A stretch of DNA of 48,894 nucleotides from Humidesulfovibrio sp. (GTDB lineage: Bacteria > Desulfobacterota > Desulfovibrionia > Desulfovibrionales > Desulfovibrionaceae), in contig NZ_JAUYFU010000019.1 in the NCBI RefSeq assembly GCF_030689645.1, positions 1-48,894 on the forward strand, given 5' to 3'. The notes beneath the pieces were generated by a model, which saw only the letters and a list, made by a program, of their open reading frames with translations, searched no databases and had not been told where the DNA came from. Every line of letters begins with the position of its first letter. The stretch's first letter is position 1. Positions 33,399 to 41,079 of the stretch are shown here, piece by piece. The translations under genes were made by a program, and so were the position numbers.

Positions 33399-34580
33399 AT
33401 GGCTATCTTAGTCGTGTGTGCGTGCAAGGCAGTGTATAGCGAGAAGAAGCGCGTTTGTCCAAAATGTGGGAAGGCAAAAAAGGATCGCGGGACACGCTAC
33501 CAAGTCGTCATCAGGGAAGGCGGTCGAGGGACACGGAAACATACGCGTTTCGCGAACACCATGGCCGAAGCCAAGCAGGTTGAGCTTCAGATACGCACCC
33601 AGCTTGACCGGAATATCAACCCGAAGGCTGTAAGAAAGGGCATCACCCTCGGCGAGATATTCCAGCGCTACATCACTTTAGCCAAGGATCCAACTGCCGA
33701 TGAACACAAGAAAACCTGGCCAAAAGATGAGCAACGCTGGCGTGACTATCTCGCCCCTGCTTTCGCCAACCGCCGAGCTGACGCCATCTCCCGCGCTGAT
33801 GTCTCGACGTTCCTCAAAGCGTTGGAGGGCAAACTTTCCCGCGTCGGAAAACCGCTTGCGCCTGCCACACGCAGACACGTGCTACACTTGATGCAACGCT
33901 TGTATAATTGGGCATATGACGAAAAAATTTACCGTGGGTTCAATCCATCCAAAAAAGTAACTGTGAAAGTCAAAAACGCCATCGGAAGAGCACTTACCCC
34001 CGAACAGGCAAAACATCTGCTGGCCACACTTCAAGGCTACGGCGGGGATACCAAGCCGCTTGTGGAACGGATGTGCGCCTTAGGGCTTCTGTTCGCGCTC
34101 TTGACCGGTCGCCGACTAGGCGAAATATGCTCATTGCGGAGAGACAAGGTTGATATGGAATTCGAGGAGGCTGAATTTTTTGACGAGAAAAATGATTGTT
34201 TTCTAACGGTGCCACTGGGCCGAGAAGCCTTGGATCTAATCAATCAAGCAAACGAAATCGGGCTCAAGGACGCAGAGATTGTTTTTCATCGCGAGAAAGG
34301 GGCGAGCATTTACAGCGCAATGCAATACCGGTGGAGGAAGCTCCGAGATAGCGTTGGTCTCGCTGGATTCAGGATTCATGACTTCAGGCACACTTTCGCA
34401 ACCTGGGTGAAACGTAAAGTCGGCCTGCTCGCTTCGATGGGGCTAACTGGGCATACTACCGTAACGAATGCAAAGATTTACGAGCATACCGAAGATGACG
34501 TGTTGCGGCGTGGTATCGCCGCAGTAGCGGAACGGGCGGGACTTCGAAATGGCGAGAAGGACGACAAACCGACGAGCTGA
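33399..34580 (+). CDS. tyrosine recombinase (phage/ICE-type integrase) with N-terminal zinc-ribbon-like motif
   Basis: A 393-aa site-specific recombinase. Catalytic residues are seen as Arg239 in TGRRLGEI, His327 and Arg330 in HDFRHTFA, His352 in LTGHTTV, and the nucleophile Tyr361 in IYEHTEDD. The central SAM-like core-binding domain is ~82-180 (LGEIFQRYITLAKDP start). Cys7, Cys9, Cys20 and Cys23 near the N-terminus look like a small zinc site. The Shine-Dalgarno GGAGG lies about 8 bases before the ATG. It should integrate and excise the 8-kb element; the companion excisionase may be the helix-turn-helix protein at 40726. Confidence 0.93.
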   Translation: MAILVVCACKAVYSEKKRVCPKCGKAKKDRGTRYQVVIREGGRGTRKHTRFANTMAEAKQVELQIRTQLDRNINPKAVRKGITLGEIFQRYITLAKDPTADEHKKTWPKDEQRWRDYLAPAFANRRADAISRADVSTFLKALEGKLSRVGKPLAPATRRHVLHLMQRLYNWAYDEKIYRGFNPSKKVTVKVKNAIGRALTPEQAKHLLATLQGYGGDTKPLVERMCALGLLFALLTGRRLGEICSLRRDKVDMEFEEAEFFDEKNDCFLTVPLGREALDLINQANEIGLKDAEIVFHREKGASIYSAMQYRWRKLRDSVGLAGFRIHDFRHTFATWVKRKVGLLASMGLTGHTTVTNAKIYEHTEDDVLRRGIAAVAERAGLRNGEKDDKPTS

Positions 34581-34675: not shown

Positions 34676-35632
34676 CTAATGGTGGATGTTGATGATCCCT
34701 TTTCCGAGCAGCTTGAGTCTGCCTAGGCTTTCAACGTCCCACTCGTGCGGCGTGATGAAGAGCTTGTCCACCGCCCAATTATCGGCCGAAAGACATACGC
34801 CTGAACGCGTGCGTCCGTTGTGCCATATCATGCGCGCAGTTGGGGAGGTCGGCGCATAGTCATGCCGCAAGTCCCCAGCGTCCTCCAGTGGCGGCCGCTC
34901 CGAGGCGCTGCGCAGTATGTCGTGCGTCAGAGGGGTGTGTCGCCGCGGCCTAAACTGCCGGGTGATATCCGCAGCGGTCTCTTTCGCTTCTGCCGAAATC
35001 TCACCCGGCGCCCACGACTCGCCCCACATGCTGACGTTGCGCACGATGACCCGCGCCGCCAGTTCAAGCGGATATCGGGCTGCGAACATCACGCCCGGTG
35101 CCCTGACAAATGACACGATTTCCGAACCGGCGGGCCTTGCGAAATCACCATGCGGCCACAAGTGTCCGACTTGACGGAACGGCGGAATGAGCGGGTCTGC
35201 CACTGGAATCAAGAGGCCGCACACTGGCAGCATCTGCGCTGTGATGTCGCCGTTCTGCGACGGCCAGGCGCCGATGAGCTCGACAGAATCCTGCGCGCCG
35301 AGAGAACCGTATGTGTAAGGTGTTCCGGACGCGTCGTAACGGAACGAGGCTGGAGCCAGAGCCTCCAAGGTCTGGATGACCCTACCATCCACGGAGAGAT
35401 TCTCGGCGTAGGCTATCAGGCGCTGCTGGACGCCCACGATGTCGCGCACTGCGACACGGAAGACTTCGCCGCGAGGATCGAGGCAGCCAACAAGGCTGAT
35501 GGCCTCGGCATGGTCGCAGGCGAGGATCAACTGCCGGGTCGAAACGATGCGGCACGGCTCCCCGGTGCGCCGTGATAAGCCGGGGAGGACGATGCTGCAG
35601 GAGAGGGTGGTGAGGACATAAACGATCGGCAT
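34676..35632 (-). CDS. orphan 318-aa protein, unknown function
   Basis: A 318-aa product starting MPIVYVLTTLSCSIVLPGLS. A perfect AAGGAG seven bases before the ATG strongly supports it as a real gene. It looks soluble, mixed alpha/beta, with several Trp/His-containing stretches (GHLWPHGDFARPAGSE, TRSGVCLSADNWAVDKLF). No catalytic signature or known family is recognised. It faces the integrase gene across a terminator and is probably cargo of the element. Confidence 0.7.
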   Translation of the reverse strand: MPIVYVLTTLSCSIVLPGLSRRTGEPCRIVSTRQLILACDHAEAISLVGCLDPRGEVFRVAVRDIVGVQQRLIAYAENLSVDGRVIQTLEALAPASFRYDASGTPYTYGSLGAQDSVELIGAWPSQNGDITAQMLPVCGLLIPVADPLIPPFRQVGHLWPHGDFARPAGSEIVSFVRAPGVMFAARYPLELAARVIVRNVSMWGESWAPGEISAEAKETAADITRQFRPRRHTPLTHDILRSASERPPLEDAGDLRHDYAPTSPTARMIWHNGRTRSGVCLSADNWAVDKLFITPHEWDVESLGRLKLLGKGIINIHH

Positions 35633-36960: not shown

Positions 36961-37059
36961 GTGAAGCGACGCACGAGAACACTCAAAATCACTGCGACTG
37001 TGGCAATTGCCTCCATCGCAAAACGCAGGCTCGCAATGAGCAAAGGAAGATCAGCATGA
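36961..37059 (+). CDS. 32-residue basic peptide ORF, translationally coupled to the next gene
   Basis: A GTG at 36961 is preceded by AAAGGAGGGACA, one of the strongest ribosome-binding sites in the window. The 32-aa product (starting MKRRTRTLKITATVAIASIA and ending KGRSA) is very basic. Its TGA overlaps the ATG of the 70-aa gene (ATGA at 37056-37059). It could be a leader peptide that sets translation of the next gene, or a small functional peptide. It is too short for routine gene calling. Confidence 0.6.
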   Translation: MKRRTRTLKITATVAIASIAKRRLAMSKGRSA

Positions 37060-37268
37060 GATACGTTGCACTGCTCAAGTGTGCGAACGGCAAGCGCGTG
37101 CAGGCCATCTACCCGGCGCTGTCTCAGGCCAAGGCTCTCGAGGAGCTTGAATACCTGATGGACTACAAACAGGCCGAAGAAGGCGAGCTGCGGGACGAGC
37201 ACGGCGAGCTCGTGGGCTCGAAAAAACGCGGCAGCCAGGAGGAAACAACAGACAGAATGCTCCGGTAG
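37056..37268 (+). CDS. small orphan protein (70 aa)
   Basis: Product starts MRYVALLKCANGKRVQAIYP and is followed by amphipathic helices (LSQAKALEELEYLMDYKQAEEGEL) and a basic, Gln-rich tail. AAGGAAG lies about 8 bases before the ATG, and its start overlaps the stop of the 32-codon ORF. A terminator follows at 37328. No family recognised; it may be a small DNA/RNA-binding or regulatory protein, which is speculation. Confidence 0.6.
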   Translation: MRYVALLKCANGKRVQAIYPALSQAKALEELEYLMDYKQAEEGELRDEHGELVGSKKRGSQEETTDRMLR

Positions 37269-37327
37269 TCTGCCACAGTTCCCCGGTCGCCGGGATGAAC
37301 CTGCCGCAAAGTTGGCGGCGATATGAC

Positions 37328-37359
37328 AAAAGGCTCCCTTCGGGGAGCCTTTTCTTTTT
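37328..37359 (+). terminator. intrinsic terminator after the 70-aa gene
   Basis: AAAAGGCTCCC (37328-37338) pairs with GGGAGCCTTTT around a TTCG tetraloop, followed by CTTTTTG. It faces the hairpin at 37402-37425 that would end the minus-strand RNA. Confidence 0.92.
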
Positions 37360-37398
37360 GGCTTGGTACGGCTTTTTATGCTTACCCGCGATAGCGAT

Positions 37399-37425
37399 GT
37401 AAAGAGGGGCCTTGCGGCCCCTCTT
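37399..37425 (-). terminator. GNRA-capped terminator-like hairpin at the 3' end of the structured RNA
   Basis: AAGAGGGGCC (37402-37411) pairs with GGCCCCTCTT (37416-37425). On the minus strand the loop is GCAA and the stem is followed by TTTAC. The T-run is short, so termination may be partial. Confidence 0.6.
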
Positions 37426-38525
37426 CTAGATATCCAAATCCAAACGTAATCAGAATCTCTGCTTAGACCCACCTGACTTCCTTCGCCTCGGCGCATTTCC
37501 TCGCCGCGTCTGTCCTTCGCTTACACCCTGGTAGCCAACCAGGAATCGCCTTGTGCTCTTTACACAAGGTCGGACGCAGACGTTGCCCTAAGGGGAGGTT
37601 ACTATGAAGTCTCTGTGTTCTGCTCGTCATCGCTGACGAACAGATTACATCCCTGATTCAGCCAATACGGCACTTGCCTAGCCAGCATGCTGACCAGGCA
37701 GTACGCCGCCGTGAGTTCTTACCTCACATGTCGGTATCCATTTTAGGTGCCTTCTGTACCCGAGCGTTCACATCTGGGGCGATAATTCCCAGAATACGCT
37801 CCTTTCAACTTCCGAGGTGTCACAGCAAAGTGCTACTACGGTGCTATCTCTCGGGTTTTACGACGAAGGTTTCTCTCGTCACCATGATGGAGCGGGTTGG
37901 GCTTTCGCCCGTTAACGAAGCTGCTCTAACCGCATCGTGCTTATCTCCGGGGGCCACCCAGTTTCGCCACGCGCAGCCGCTTCGTCCCTTACGCGTCACG
38001 GCCCATGCTCTCATAGAGCGAAGGTTCCGTCCCGCGACCCCAGTTTCTGGGGCTTACGACATTTGGCCTATCCAGGCGCACCACCTAAGACAGGCATGAA
38101 CTCAACAACACTTCACACCCCGTGATAGCCTCGGGTAGCTTGTGTAGCTGGTTCCCAAACCGCGCAGGCGTGTTTCCATCGCACGCGGCTTTCCGGTACG
38201 AGCAAACTTGGAATCATCCGTGCTGGCTAGGCTGCGGATACTTGTCGGCTAACAAGTAGTTTGCTCTGGGTCATACAGCAGTCCTACGATTCTGATCCGT
38301 TCGGTGGAGACGAGCCTCCAAATGAGCGGCGCCGTGACCACATTGCGGCGAGTCTTGTCCTCGCCTTGAACTCCGTGGTCATCGGCAGCGCCATTTATCC
38401 GGGACGCACTTCTCCTGGTCCTTCTCTTCCTCCTTTGTTCGGATTGTCGCATCCTTCTGCGGCACGTGTGTGACGTCCACTGCGGCCGTGCTGGCGTGAT
38501 GACCAGCTGATCGTGATGCGGGTTT
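37399..38525 (-). ncRNA. candidate giant structured non-coding RNA (~1.1 kb)
   Basis: There is no plausible protein in any frame, but inverted repeats are dense throughout. Helices include 38327-38332/38388-38392 enclosing 38335-38341/38375-38381 and 38347-38352/38360-38365; 38200-38208/38258-38266 enclosing hairpins 38216-38239 and 38241-38256; 38038-38052; 37774-37792; 37711-37727; 37675-37700; 37549-37569; 37527-37543. On the minus strand hairpins are capped by GNRA loops: GAAA at 37899-37910, GCGA at 37624-37639 and GCAA in the final hairpin. That points to a minus-strand RNA. A promoter candidate lies at 38532-38562. Size and style resemble GOLLD/ROOL-class ornate RNAs of mobile elements, but the family is not assigned. 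No group II intron domain V was found. Confidence 0.6.
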
Positions 38526-38531
38526 GAGGTC

Positions 38532-38562
38532 AGCATATCACGGCGCCGGAGTGCTGGGTCAA
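38532..38562 (-). promoter_or_regulatory. candidate promoter of the structured RNA
   Basis: On the minus strand TTGACC (38557-38562) and TATGCT (38532-38537) are separated by 19 bp, with a TGn extended -10 element directly before TATGCT. A start near 38525 would place the first helix of the structured region within a few bases of the 5' end. Confidence 0.4.
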
Positions 38563-38789
38563 GAGGCAGCGGGAAGCAAATGCTCGAAGACAGTCCACCT
38601 CAAATATGGACATGACTTCTCCCGTCCTGACAGCAGGTTCGGCTCAGACGAATGCGCTAGCCGTCACCTCATAAAAAAAGTTGAAGAATATTGTGCTGAC
38701 CCTCTTGAAAAATTTGCTTTTGCCTCCAGCGCGATCGTAGCCTTGGGGGGAATCGGGCCGCGCCCGCAACCCTAGCCAAGGACAAGCAG
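38563..38789. other. divergent spacer between the structured RNA and the maturase operon
   Basis: About 230 bp. The last 15 bases carry CCAAGGACAAGCAG, the ribosome-binding site of the gene at 38790. AT-rich stretches with TTGAAG and TTGAAA could be -35 boxes of the plus-strand operon, but no clear -10 was matched. A TTG-started frame (38524-38775) crosses the region without a ribosome-binding site. Confidence 0.35.
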
Positions 38790-39008
38790 ATGGGAATCAT
38801 TCGCAGAACCGAACGACTGGAGAAGCAGGTCAACATAAAGGTCAACGAGGAGGTCTACAACAAGTATAAGGCCGTCCGTGAGGCATGCACGGCGAAGGGA
38901 TGGGAGTTTAGCTTGCAGCCGGAGTTCAGCGCCTGGCTGAATGGCGAGCTAATCAAGGCAGAAAAGGAGCTTGCGAAGAAGGCTCCAGCCGCTGAAGCCG
39001 GCGAGTAG
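38790..39008 (+). CDS. small protein, possible ribbon-helix-helix DNA-binding protein
   Basis: A 72-aa, charged product. A short beta-like segment (EKQVNIKVNEEVYNKYKAVR) followed by two helices and a Lys/Glu/Ala tail gives a ribbon-helix-helix-like pattern, as in small plasmid or antitoxin repressors. This is a weak, by-eye assignment. CCAAGGA lies 11 bases before the ATG. It is the first gene of an operon with the maturase-like gene, which starts three bases after its stop, and is divergent from the structured RNA. It might autoregulate the locus. Confidence 0.6.
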   Translation: MGIIRRTERLEKQVNIKVNEEVYNKYKAVREACTAKGWEFSLQPEFSAWLNGELIKAEKELAKKAPAAEAGE

Positions 39009-39011
39009 CGG

Positions 39012-40064
39012 GTGGGCATCAGCAAGCAATATCGGCCTGGGCCGGGGGACGTTGCGCTCGTGAGGAGGGCGCAGCGTTCCCTAGCCCTAGCCGGGCGGCA
39101 TGTGGATCTGATGCGGTATGTGGAGCGGGATAGCTTCCAAGCGGTAGCCGCGATGCTCGTCGAGCACTACATGCCGCGCGCTGCGGCCAAACAGTTGGAG
39201 ATAGCGGAGGTGTTCCGAGACCTTTACGCGACGTGGCTCGTACTGGCGCCTCTGTCCAACCAGGCAAGAGGCTACTGGCGCCCGTGGTGGGGGCCGGGCG
39301 TGGCGATGAGCTGGCTGCGCGTCGAGATCAACCGCTGCGCTCGTCCTTGCCTTGGCCGCTTCTCGTTCGACTGGGCTACGGCGCAGGTTGCACCGGGAGC
39401 TGCGGCAGCCAAAATTACGGACGATGCGTTCCTCGCACATGCAGAAGCGTTGCTCGGCCACGCGTTGGGCGATACCCTGCGCGCCAACTTTACGCGATAC
39501 GTCCTAGGCGGATTGGTTTGGCGCGCCGCCGCCGAACAAGCACTCGCGTTAGCGAGAGAGCATCAGGCCGCGTTCATGTGGCATGAAGACGAGTTGTGGT
39601 TGTTGGCGCGGAGGCCGTTCAGTGCGGATGGCGTTGCCTGGGTCGACCTACGTGGGGGAGCGGTGGATATCCTCCAATGGTCGGTCAGGGTAGCCGAGGG
39701 CAAGCTCCAGGCACGGATGTCAGAGCCCACTGTGCAGCGACTCAAGGAGAGCGTCAGGGGGGCCTTGGCATCGGACGCTTCACCAGAACATAAGCTACGG
39801 CAGATCAATGCCGCTGTTCGGTCATGGCATCATTGGGCGCGCTACGCCTTTGACGCCCGACAGGAGGCGACGGAGGTAGAGGCGTGGATATGGCGGCGGG
39901 TCAGCCGACACATCCTGCAACACTCCCCAAAGCTACTGGCTGCGTACTTCAGCCTGAGAACGGCAACGTGGGATACGCAGCTTCATTTTGGGCGTGTGTC
40001 GTATCTTCTGGATAGGGACGTGACGGACGAGGATTGGCTCAAAATTTGGAACCCCAGGCGTTAG
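39012..40064 (+). CDS. degenerate RT/maturase-like protein (group II intron IEP-related thumb/X domain)
   Basis: A 350-aa product from a GTG start 3 bp after the previous stop. Residues ~208-305 read like the thumb and X/GIIM region of group II intron proteins: WVDLRGGAVDILQWSVRVAE, then KLQARMSEPTVQRLKESVRG, then LRQINAAVRSWHHWARYAF and ATEVEAWIWRRVSRHI. Upstream, FMWHEDELWLLAR (188-200) sits where the YADD box should be, with WHED in its place. The ~40-residue helix between that box and the thumb is almost absent. So polymerase activity is unlikely, while RNA binding may persist, as in plastid MatK (analogy only). No endonuclease domain is seen. It is divergent from the 1.1-kb structured RNA, its natural candidate partner. 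Confidence 0.55.
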   Translation: MGISKQYRPGPGDVALVRRAQRSLALAGRHVDLMRYVERDSFQAVAAMLVEHYMPRAAAKQLEIAEVFRDLYATWLVLAPLSNQARGYWRPWWGPGVAMSWLRVEINRCARPCLGRFSFDWATAQVAPGAAAAKITDDAFLAHAEALLGHALGDTLRANFTRYVLGGLVWRAAAEQALALAREHQAAFMWHEDELWLLARRPFSADGVAWVDLRGGAVDILQWSVRVAEGKLQARMSEPTVQRLKESVRGALASDASPEHKLRQINAAVRSWHHWARYAFDARQEATEVEAWIWRRVSRHILQHSPKLLAAYFSLRTATWDTQLHFGRVSYLLDRDVTDEDWLKIWNPRR

Positions 40065-40083
40065 GCGCAGAAGGACGGACACC

Positions 40084-40500
40084 ATGAGCCTCAACTACAA
40101 CATCGATGGGTTTGAACTGGCAATTTCTGCGGGCGTGTCGGATGAGAAGCTCGGAAAGCGTAGGTGGACGCAGGTAGCGGCCAGCTATCTGGGCTGGCCC
40201 TGTTCAGACCTTGAGCCGCTTGCCGGCCTGAAGGCGGTGCTCGACTGCTTCCTGCGCGGGCGTCTTCCAAGCGGCGAGCCGGGCATCATCTTGGGAACGG
40301 AGCACGAAGGGTTACGTGTGACCGTGCGGCAGAAGGACAAGGTTCAGTTTCTTCAGGTTTGCCGAGTGGCACGGGGGAACACCGAGGCGGAGCGGTTTCT
40401 GTCCTATTTTGAGGTTTCGCGGCTCACCATCGCCGTCAACAAGGCGTTACAGGCTCTCAGCCCGTCCTCAATATGGGGACCGGAGCCAGAGCAAAAGTGA
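40084..40500 (+). CDS. orphan protein downstream of the maturase-like gene (138 aa)
   Basis: Product starts MSLNYNIDGFELAISAGVSD and appears globular, alpha/beta, with a conserved-looking LKAVLDCFLRGRLPSGEPGI stretch and a C-terminal helix (LTIAVNKALQALS). It lies 19 bp after the maturase-like gene, so it belongs to the same transcript. The Shine-Dalgarno is moderate (AAGGACGG). No family is recognised. Possible third component of the RNA/protein locus. Confidence 0.65.
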   Translation: MSLNYNIDGFELAISAGVSDEKLGKRRWTQVAASYLGWPCSDLEPLAGLKAVLDCFLRGRLPSGEPGIILGTEHEGLRVTVRQKDKVQFLQVCRVARGNTEAERFLSYFEVSRLTIAVNKALQALSPSSIWGPEPEQK

Positions 40501-40725
40501 TCCAGGCATCAGCAGCCGCCACCCGCAGAGCCAAAAAACATGGCCCGCTTGACACATTCAGGGATTTTCGGTTCTTGCTTTACGATATCAGTGTGTTATG
40601 TGGTCAGTAGAAACACGTTGGGTAAGGCGCCAGTCGCACAGGGCTACTCGTATCAACGCAAAGGTTCCTCGGCTGCAGCCCGACCGAGGAACGGAAATGA
40701 ACAAAGACTCTTCCTGGAGGGGAGC

Positions 40726-41079
40726 ATGAGAAAGCAGAAGTCCATTGATCTTCAAGCGCCGACCACAAAATTTCAGCCTGGGCGCTACGTCACCGTATCG
40801 GAAGCAGCCAAGCAAATTGGGCTGCCAGAAAGAACCCTGTGGGGGTGGCGGGAAAAGGCAGCCTTGGAGATCGTGCGGGCAGGGATCTTTGTCAAGCCCG
40901 GCAAGGCCGTGCTGTTCGACCTGGATGCTTGGGCCAGCTACCTTGAGCATCTCCAGAGGGAGGCTGTGGAGGCCGCTCGCGCTTGGCAGCTTAGGTTCCG
41001 CGCCGTTACCATCCTGCCTGCCGCAGCAGTAGCGGCGGCCATAGCCGCAATGCTTCTCCAAGGCGGTGGCGGATTCTAG
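40726..41079 (+). CDS. helix-turn-helix (MerR/excisionase-like) protein with C-terminal hydrophobic segment
   Basis: A 117-aa product. The N-terminal region YVTVSEAAKQIGLPERTLWGW (~22-42) is a typical HTH_17/excisionase helix-turn-helix, followed by a wing-like KAALEIVRAGIFVKPGKAVLF. The last ~25 residues (AVTILPAAAVAAAIAAMLL) form one strongly hydrophobic helix, unusual for a DNA-binding protein. GGAGGGGAGC precedes the ATG. It could be the excisionase/regulator for the integrase, possibly membrane-anchored. The 225-bp spacer upstream has a TTGACA at 40550-40555 without a clear -10. Confidence 0.75.
   Translation: MRKQKSIDLQAPTTKFQPGRYVTVSEAAKQIGLPERTLWGWREKAALEIVRAGIFVKPGKAVLFDLDAWASYLEHLQREAVEAARAWQLRFRAVTILPAAAVAAAIAAMLLQGGGGF

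Follow-up and report, generated by a model that had tools for sequence, protein, structure and literature searches.

The 48,894-nucleotide (nt) contig NZ_JAUYFU010000019.1 of Humidesulfovibrio sp., referred to in its full length as the window, encodes on its minus strand a structured RNA of about 1.1 kb (approximately 38530-37399) with strong covariation and, divergently from it on the plus strand, an operon of three genes whose products are 72, 350 and 138 amino acids (aa) long. The locus quite probably comprises a circularly permuted (CP) group II ribozyme together with a dedicated maturase that has lost its reverse transcriptase (RT) function. The ribozyme class is already known, and the linked maturase appears to be new.

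The RNA is recognisable from a match to the Rfam model of group II intron domains 5 and 6 (D5 and D6; RF00029, Intron_gpII) at 38193-38096 on the minus strand, which scores 40.6 bits against a gathering score of 40 and is the sole Rfam match above that score in the window. On 17 related or control loci the same model gave 15 matches at E ≤ 0.1, the highest scoring 50.9 bits; L016 and L036 refer to the same place, and L017 and L040 are without a match. Because RF00029 matches both the window and related loci, the statement of a preliminary description of this DNA that no group II domain V is present is wrong; its conclusion that the RNA is not a normal intron is right for another reason, namely that D5 is present in a circularly permuted order. 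Kinship with GOLLD, ROOL, OLE or HEARO, which the same description had considered, and with other Rfam families was rejected. An ornate RNA of the GOLLD, ROOL or OLE type that is unrelated to introns might be suspected from the size of the RNA and from an integrase gene located 3 kb away, but it is already refuted by the group II D5-D6 and splice sites and by Rfam, which on 37000-39000 gives no match of that kind even when E-values as high as 10 are admitted. Open reading frames (ORFs) of up to 141 aa exist in the region; the compensatory changes and indels in the alignment nevertheless favour an RNA over a coding function.

In the 5' to 3' direction of the minus strand a promoter-like box is followed by a P2-like hairpin, D5, D6, a 14-nt linker, the 5' splice site, D1-D3 and a terminator-like hairpin. 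The splice sites are internal and reversed, with AU at 38096 and GUGCG at 38081, and both motifs are found in all 14 aligned RNAs. The sequence GUGCGCCUGGAUA (38081-38069) is a classic group II 5' splice site and lies 14 nt after the end of D6; among the 14 RNAs the linker measures 14-21 nt. The bulged A lies within the covarying D6 helix in a GUUGAG context and is likewise kept in 14 of 14 RNAs. The loop of the P2-like hairpin, UUAGCCGA, is able to pair with the loop at 37539-37532, while two outer helices join the two ends of the RNA. Because these helices occupy the place of D4, the permutation point probably lies in this domain. An ordinary group II intron was considered and rejected, the locus having neither the D1-to-D6 order nor outside exons. 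The candidate promoter and the terminal hairpin noted in the preliminary description are discernible by eye and conserved in the alignment, but a consensus scan reported neither of them and found no minus-strand sites.

The covariation check on aligned homologues proposed earlier was run with RNAalifold on 14 homologues (alignment A2, 1240 columns), and the covarying helices that it reveals uphold the initial claim of a structured RNA. The consensus fold has an energy of -321.9, and 129 of its 261 pairs show changes on both sides; eight column shuffles reach energies of -84.7 to -100.2 and only 18-36 such pairs. The reverse complement folds worse (-230.4) yet has 111 doubly changed pairs out of 232, as mirrored helices do, and the assignment to the minus strand therefore rests on energy, D5-D6 and the splice-site motifs. 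Within the D5-D6 model 49 cells carry double-sided changes; shuffles yield 15.5 +/- 3.3, and none of 500 is as high. D5 consists of 14 pairs that are 100% paired in 12 sequences, six of them with double changes, and the basal D6 helix has 5 of 11 pairs doubly changed and is 93.9% paired. The whole D5-D6 model is 96.9% paired, a value that falls to 27.9-43.9% when it is slid by 1-3 columns. The loop-loop match 38251-38244/37539-37532 spans 8 nt, is 91% paired with two double-sided types and has its 3' partner in the assigned D3; it is the longest match outside the predicted fold, and the same list holds shorter unexplained matches with similar covariation.

A DNA search of 198 genomes matched ten, of which eight belong to the same genus (own genome included) and one, G146, to another family, its match being located around D5. 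The tenth, G120, matches over 28 nt only and was dismissed as chance. The window's own genome has a second RNA copy that is 71-75% alike. When an RNA model (R1) was applied to 395 genomes of the phylum, 30 matched, with high scores only in G000, G001 and G205 (71.1 bits in G205; the next besides G000 and G001 reaches 47.7). A reading by eye of 28 loci (L050-L077, 260-300 nt each), which covered only places with a locus and included some stretches whose orientation or offset could not be judged, found the permuted order only in L050. No relatives were found in viral contigs and phage records, and the CP RNA of pPNAP05 was not located with the RNA model built here.

The pairing of a large structured RNA with a divergently encoded maturase-like protein, as originally described, is borne out by the distribution of the two. 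The RNA model was applied to 18 protein loci, and 17 of these have D5-D6 and splice sites; the 18th (G094) ends at a contig end. The 17 linked loci are distributed over 11 genomes, with two each in G000, G001, G004 and G005, three in G008 and one each in G006, G009, G013, G646, G146 and G205, and the linkage is seen in three lineages. G205 was discovered through its RNA and then included in the protein profile, and G646 was discovered through its protein with the RNA tested later. A protein search with a single sequence among 198 relatives retrieved 13 genomes at E ≤ 0.01: nine that bear the RNA, G094 with its fragment at the contig end, and three weak ones (G183, G145, G196), the match in G183 turning out to be a true group II intron protein. 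The family profile finds 17 places in 11 of 348 genomes of the order and, within the phylum, 4 of 395 genomes (G000, G001, G205 and G352, the last weak and stop-containing). Protein identity is 28% in G146 and 22% in G205. The three divergent genes described initially exist and travel together in seven of seven same-genus regions searched as well as in G646, which belongs to another genus; at G146 and G205 neither the 72-aa nor the 138-aa gene was recognised. The core unit is the RNA-maturase pair, and several genomes keep multiple copies. In both copies of G001 (L007 and L008), whose RNAs are only about 70% alike, the alignable part of the maturase gene starts at residue 69, and the 68 residues before it are missing.

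The maturase-like label given to the 350-aa protein is supported by profile and fold comparisons. Aligned with hhalign against nine true group II intron proteins, the 14-member family gives a probability of 89.4 and an E-value of 2.1e-6 over residues 209-307; a scripted repeat of the profile comparison scores 50.3, a value to be set against scores of 21.0 or less in 100 column shuffles and of 18.2 and 17.1 when reversed. The AlphaFold model of fragment 184-325 has a mean predicted local distance difference test (pLDDT) score of 61.1, with 10-residue means of 59-89 over fragment residues 51-130, which form three helices. Compared with 350,542 PDB chains, its top five matches are group II intron proteins (6me0, 6ar1, 8fli, 8t2s and 8t2r), and Prp8 appears at rank 12 (E 2.5). 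A single plasmid match (E 0.2) was obtained from 72,556 records, and it corresponds to the GIIM domain of a genuine intron protein. It is thus likely that the thumb region is homologous to that of group II intron proteins. The YADD motif is absent from all 14 family members and present in nine of nine true intron proteins, and the 350-aa protein resembles a group II maturase whose RT is dead. At E ≤ 0.001 no GIIM protein was found in 15 same-genus genomes, own genome included. The single RVT_1 match of the own genome (L127, G000:C76:44617-45234) is an RT-protease fusion of a defence class with RT-Protease_XI as the best PADLOC model. An unannotated GIIM domain followed by a D5-like hairpin lies near the start of the circular record of Salinibacter pSR84 (L047, 302-1159) and apparently represents the terminal part of an ordinary group II intron.

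Several observations weigh against a CP ribozyme with its own maturase. In the RNA the D5 AGC triad is present, but the bulge in the alignment is CY and not AY or UN; the 14-nt circle predicted for the window is under the published range of 15-86 nt; and no EBS1-IBS1 (exon- and intron-binding site) partner is consistent across sequences, the window's UUAGGUG/CACCUAA match not being preserved in relatives. The missing EBS1-IBS1 pairing, along with the permuted order and a linked protein without RT, could indicate that the RNA is a broken and rearranged relic of an ordinary group II intron that is now inactive. This is very improbable, given that compensatory changes occur throughout the RNA, that the bulged A and both splice-site motifs are present in every one of the 14 RNAs and that multiple copies are retained in several genomes.

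On the side of the protein, Pfam GIIM reaches 17.4 bits (E 0.0045) with the whole sequence and 19.4 bits (E 0.0011) with a fragment, both below the cut-off of 23, and matches only 4 of 14 family members at E ≤ 1. Single-member hhalign probabilities span 78.1% for the window to 0.4 for G146 and 0.3% for G205. With close members only, the alignment reaches upstream and places RYVLGGLVW on RYADDFVI; with the whole family this YADD-region alignment is absent. The full-length AlphaFold model is poor (38.9, best at about 241-310), the top five fold matches have E-values of only 0.028-0.43 (probability 1.00-0.72) on a model of pLDDT 61, and a sequence-profile search of the PDB with the 350-aa family found no group II proteins. 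Alternatively, the RNA could be a CP ribozyme accompanied by a protein of another function, such as element maintenance or a role like that of AcpG, the protein encoded beside CP RNAs in Thermus, and the likeness to maturases could be chance or a relic without a role. The layout does resemble Thermus AcpG loci, AcpG itself has no likeness to intron proteins that hhalign can detect, and the homology signal is weak in distant members. This alternative is nevertheless considered unlikely, since the profile score far exceeds that of every shuffle, the five best fold matches and the independent best plasmid match all point to group II intron proteins, the latter to their GIIM domain, and the linkage extends across three lineages.

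RNA and protein of the presumed CP ribozyme and its maturase agree only partially in their histories. Among 13 same-genus loci their distances are correlated with a Mantel r of 0.397 (4 of 5000 permutations as high). The proteins of G004:C28 and G005:C26 are identical with RNAs 73% alike, and the RNAs of G005:C26 and G001:C3 are 99.6% alike with proteins 83% alike; it would thus appear that CP RNAs which differ considerably can accompany a single maturase. In three comparisons the identity changes at or next to a conserved box between the RNA and the operon (38592-38608), which looks like a recombination point. An exact or one-mismatch box occurs at nine places across 31 genomes, eight of them at CP RNA loci, and the remaining loci keep AGTCCACCTCA with differing bases after it. 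Assembly chimeras may offer another explanation for the mosaic pattern.

Table 1. Features of the CP group II RNA locus and the adjoining operon in the window
Feature	Position	Strand	Basis
CP group II RNA, whole	37399..38530	minus	conserved and covarying in 14 RNAs; ends approximate (starts just past the -10 box, ends at the terminator hairpin)
Promoter-like TTGACC-19 nt-TATGCT	38532..38562	minus	by eye in alignment
Outer D4-like closing helix	38288..38295 (5' strand) / 37457-37450 (3' strand)	minus	94-96% paired together with second helix; 3 double-sided types
Second outer helix	38272-38267/37471-37466	minus	5 double-sided types
P2-like hairpin upstream of D5	38200..38266	minus	stem with 5 double-sided pair types
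Domain 5: AGC triad, GAAA loop, CU bulge	38157..38193	minus	Rfam RF00029 and covariation
Domain 6, bulged A (GUUGAGUUCAU), 3' splice site AU	38096..38156	minus	covarying D6 helix
14-nt linker between splice sites, predicted RNA circle	38082..38095	minus	alignment of splice sites
Domain 1, starting at 5' splice site GUGCGCCUGGAUA	37652..38081	minus	basal helices 38076-38072/37656-37652 and 38068-38063/37665-37660
Domains 2 and 3, putative	37644-37619 and 37611-37475	minus	helices; assignment inferred from order
Terminator-like hairpin	37402..37425	minus	10 pairs, 91% paired; by eye, conserved in alignment
Conserved box AGTCCACCTCAAATATG between RNA and operon	38592..38608	plus	change of RNA and protein histories at or next to the box
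72-aa protein, possible ribbon-helix-helix (RHH) DNA-binding	38790..39008	plus	conserved in 11 aligned loci; function inferred
350-aa maturase-like protein; thumb/X (GIIM) region at about residues 209-307	39012..40064	plus	profile and fold
138-aa protein, unassigned fold, same operon	40084..40500	plus	conserved with maturase in genus

The 72-aa protein has no Pfam match, and its hhalign comparison with Thermus RHH proteins is weak (E 0.016, probability 2.8), leaving it not firmly an RHH protein. For the 138-aa protein neither Pfam nor PHROGs gave a match within the limits applied. The locus is flanked by genes for a tyrosine integrase (Pfam PF00589, PHROG integrase; 33399-34577) and an excisionase-like helix-turn-helix protein (40540-41079), and the host genes GidB and TusA bound the stretch from integrase to excisionase. 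No convincing direct repeats were found around this integrase element, and a search of the seven other same-genus regions did not reveal the integrase. A 318-aa protein (34676-35632) without a Pfam or PHROGs match has relatives close to the RNA locus in L105, L106, L107 and L110, which are four of the seven same-genus regions, with two copies in L106 and L107. In G146 two apparent integrase-like genes lie directly downstream of the maturase-like gene (L079, 7674-9922).

The following course of events, along with any benefit that it may confer, is proposed from the arrangement of the locus. The RNA would fold in the order D5-D6-D1-D2-D3 with its ends joined by the D4-like helix and the P2-loop pseudoknot, whereupon the bulged A of D6 would attack the 5' splice site (38082/38081). 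The 3' OH released in this step would in turn attack the 3' splice site (38096/38095). If the RNA behaves like the five CP RNAs that Roth et al. (2021; PMC8637638) examined, such back-splicing should yield a branched product together with a circle of 14 nt. The 350-aa protein, which like plant MatK would retain only the last portion of the palm and the thumb/maturase portion, would bind the RNA in trans and aid its folding in the cell, making it a natural candidate for protein help to a CP RNA. It is plausible that the two form a ribonucleoprotein (RNP). The 72-aa protein would probably regulate the shared intergenic region.

The linkage of the CP RNA to a maturase-like protein at 17 of 18 loci suggests that this kind of group II ribozyme has a protein partner, and the RT-dead neighbour makes it directly testable whether CP ribozymes act as RNPs. 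The locus may also offer an example from bacteria of a group II protein that has lost RT while retaining a role with RNA, comparable with the evolution that led to the spliceosome. The protein gene of group II introns normally sits in D4. It can tentatively be imagined, though we lean towards doubting it, that the break of an intron inside D4 produced both the permuted ribozyme and a freed protein gene, which lost the RT and kept the part that holds the RNA (compare the path from intron protein to Prp8). The result would be a domesticated bacterial group II RNP with AcpG as a further diverged member, and CP group II ribozymes generally would then have maturase-derived partners.

CP group II RNAs (formerly T-large) were described by Roth et al. 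(2021) together with a linked and often divergent protein, AcpG, that resembles no known protein class. RNA circles were made in vitro, processing was undetected in the one bacterium tested, and neither biological role nor partner is known in that account, whose authors would find the absence of protein help surprising. The earlier remark that no described system has this arrangement thus does not hold for the RNA; in the literature searched it does for the maturase-like partner, as no report there links such a protein to CP group II RNAs. Roth et al. (2021) state the opposite for their own set, in or near which ORFs for intron proteins were never observed. The window, whose RNA represents a divergent lineage, shares with these RNAs the succession D5-D6-D1, splice sites that are internal and reversed, a bulged A in D6, a short linker, an upstream P2-like stem with a possible loop-loop pseudoknot, the absence of an internal ORF and a divergent operon beside the RNA. 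It differs from them in its 5' splice site (GUGCG as in ordinary introns, there GGGCG), its D5 bulge (CY as opposed to UN), its 14-nt linker and the maturase-like nature of the linked protein.

CP RNAs were read by eye in the Thermus plasmids pTT8, pTthSNM1-1f and pTA14. The RNA of pTT8 is far apart in sequence (12.6 bits with the RNA model built here), and its D5 followed by a GGGCG...GGACAGG D1 start shows the same succession as the window. Like the 350-aa gene, that for AcpG (TTHC007) is divergent and adjoins the CP RNA, and the gene order in three Thermus plasmids (small RHH, AcpG, about 117 aa) resembles that of the 72-, 350- and 138-aa genes. These three are among six additional Thermus plasmids and list a CopG-type gene together with AcpG and the gene of about 117 aa; of the others, one lists the first two genes and two the last two. 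AcpG is shorter than the 350-aa protein, with about 260 aa, and neither BLAST nor hhalign (probability 0.1) detects homology between AcpG and the 350-aa family, which led to the rejection of their identity. An AcpG profile gave five weak partial matches in 345 genomes of the phylum (best E 0.001). The two kinds of loci are kept apart here, their layout being similar and a common origin unproven.

Ordinary bacterial group II introns and their encoded proteins share with the window D5/D6, the GUGYG and AY splice sites and the thumb/X (GIIM) region, and differ from it in that the locus has a permuted order, no outer exons, no RT motif and a protein gene that lies outside the RNA on the other strand. 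Two further proteins treated in PMC4424553, MatK and the degenerate protein of the bacterial O.i.I2, resemble the 350-aa protein in having lost the RT motif and kept thumb/X. Both of these are encoded within introns of ordinary order, whereas the gene in the window is free-standing beside a permuted RNA.

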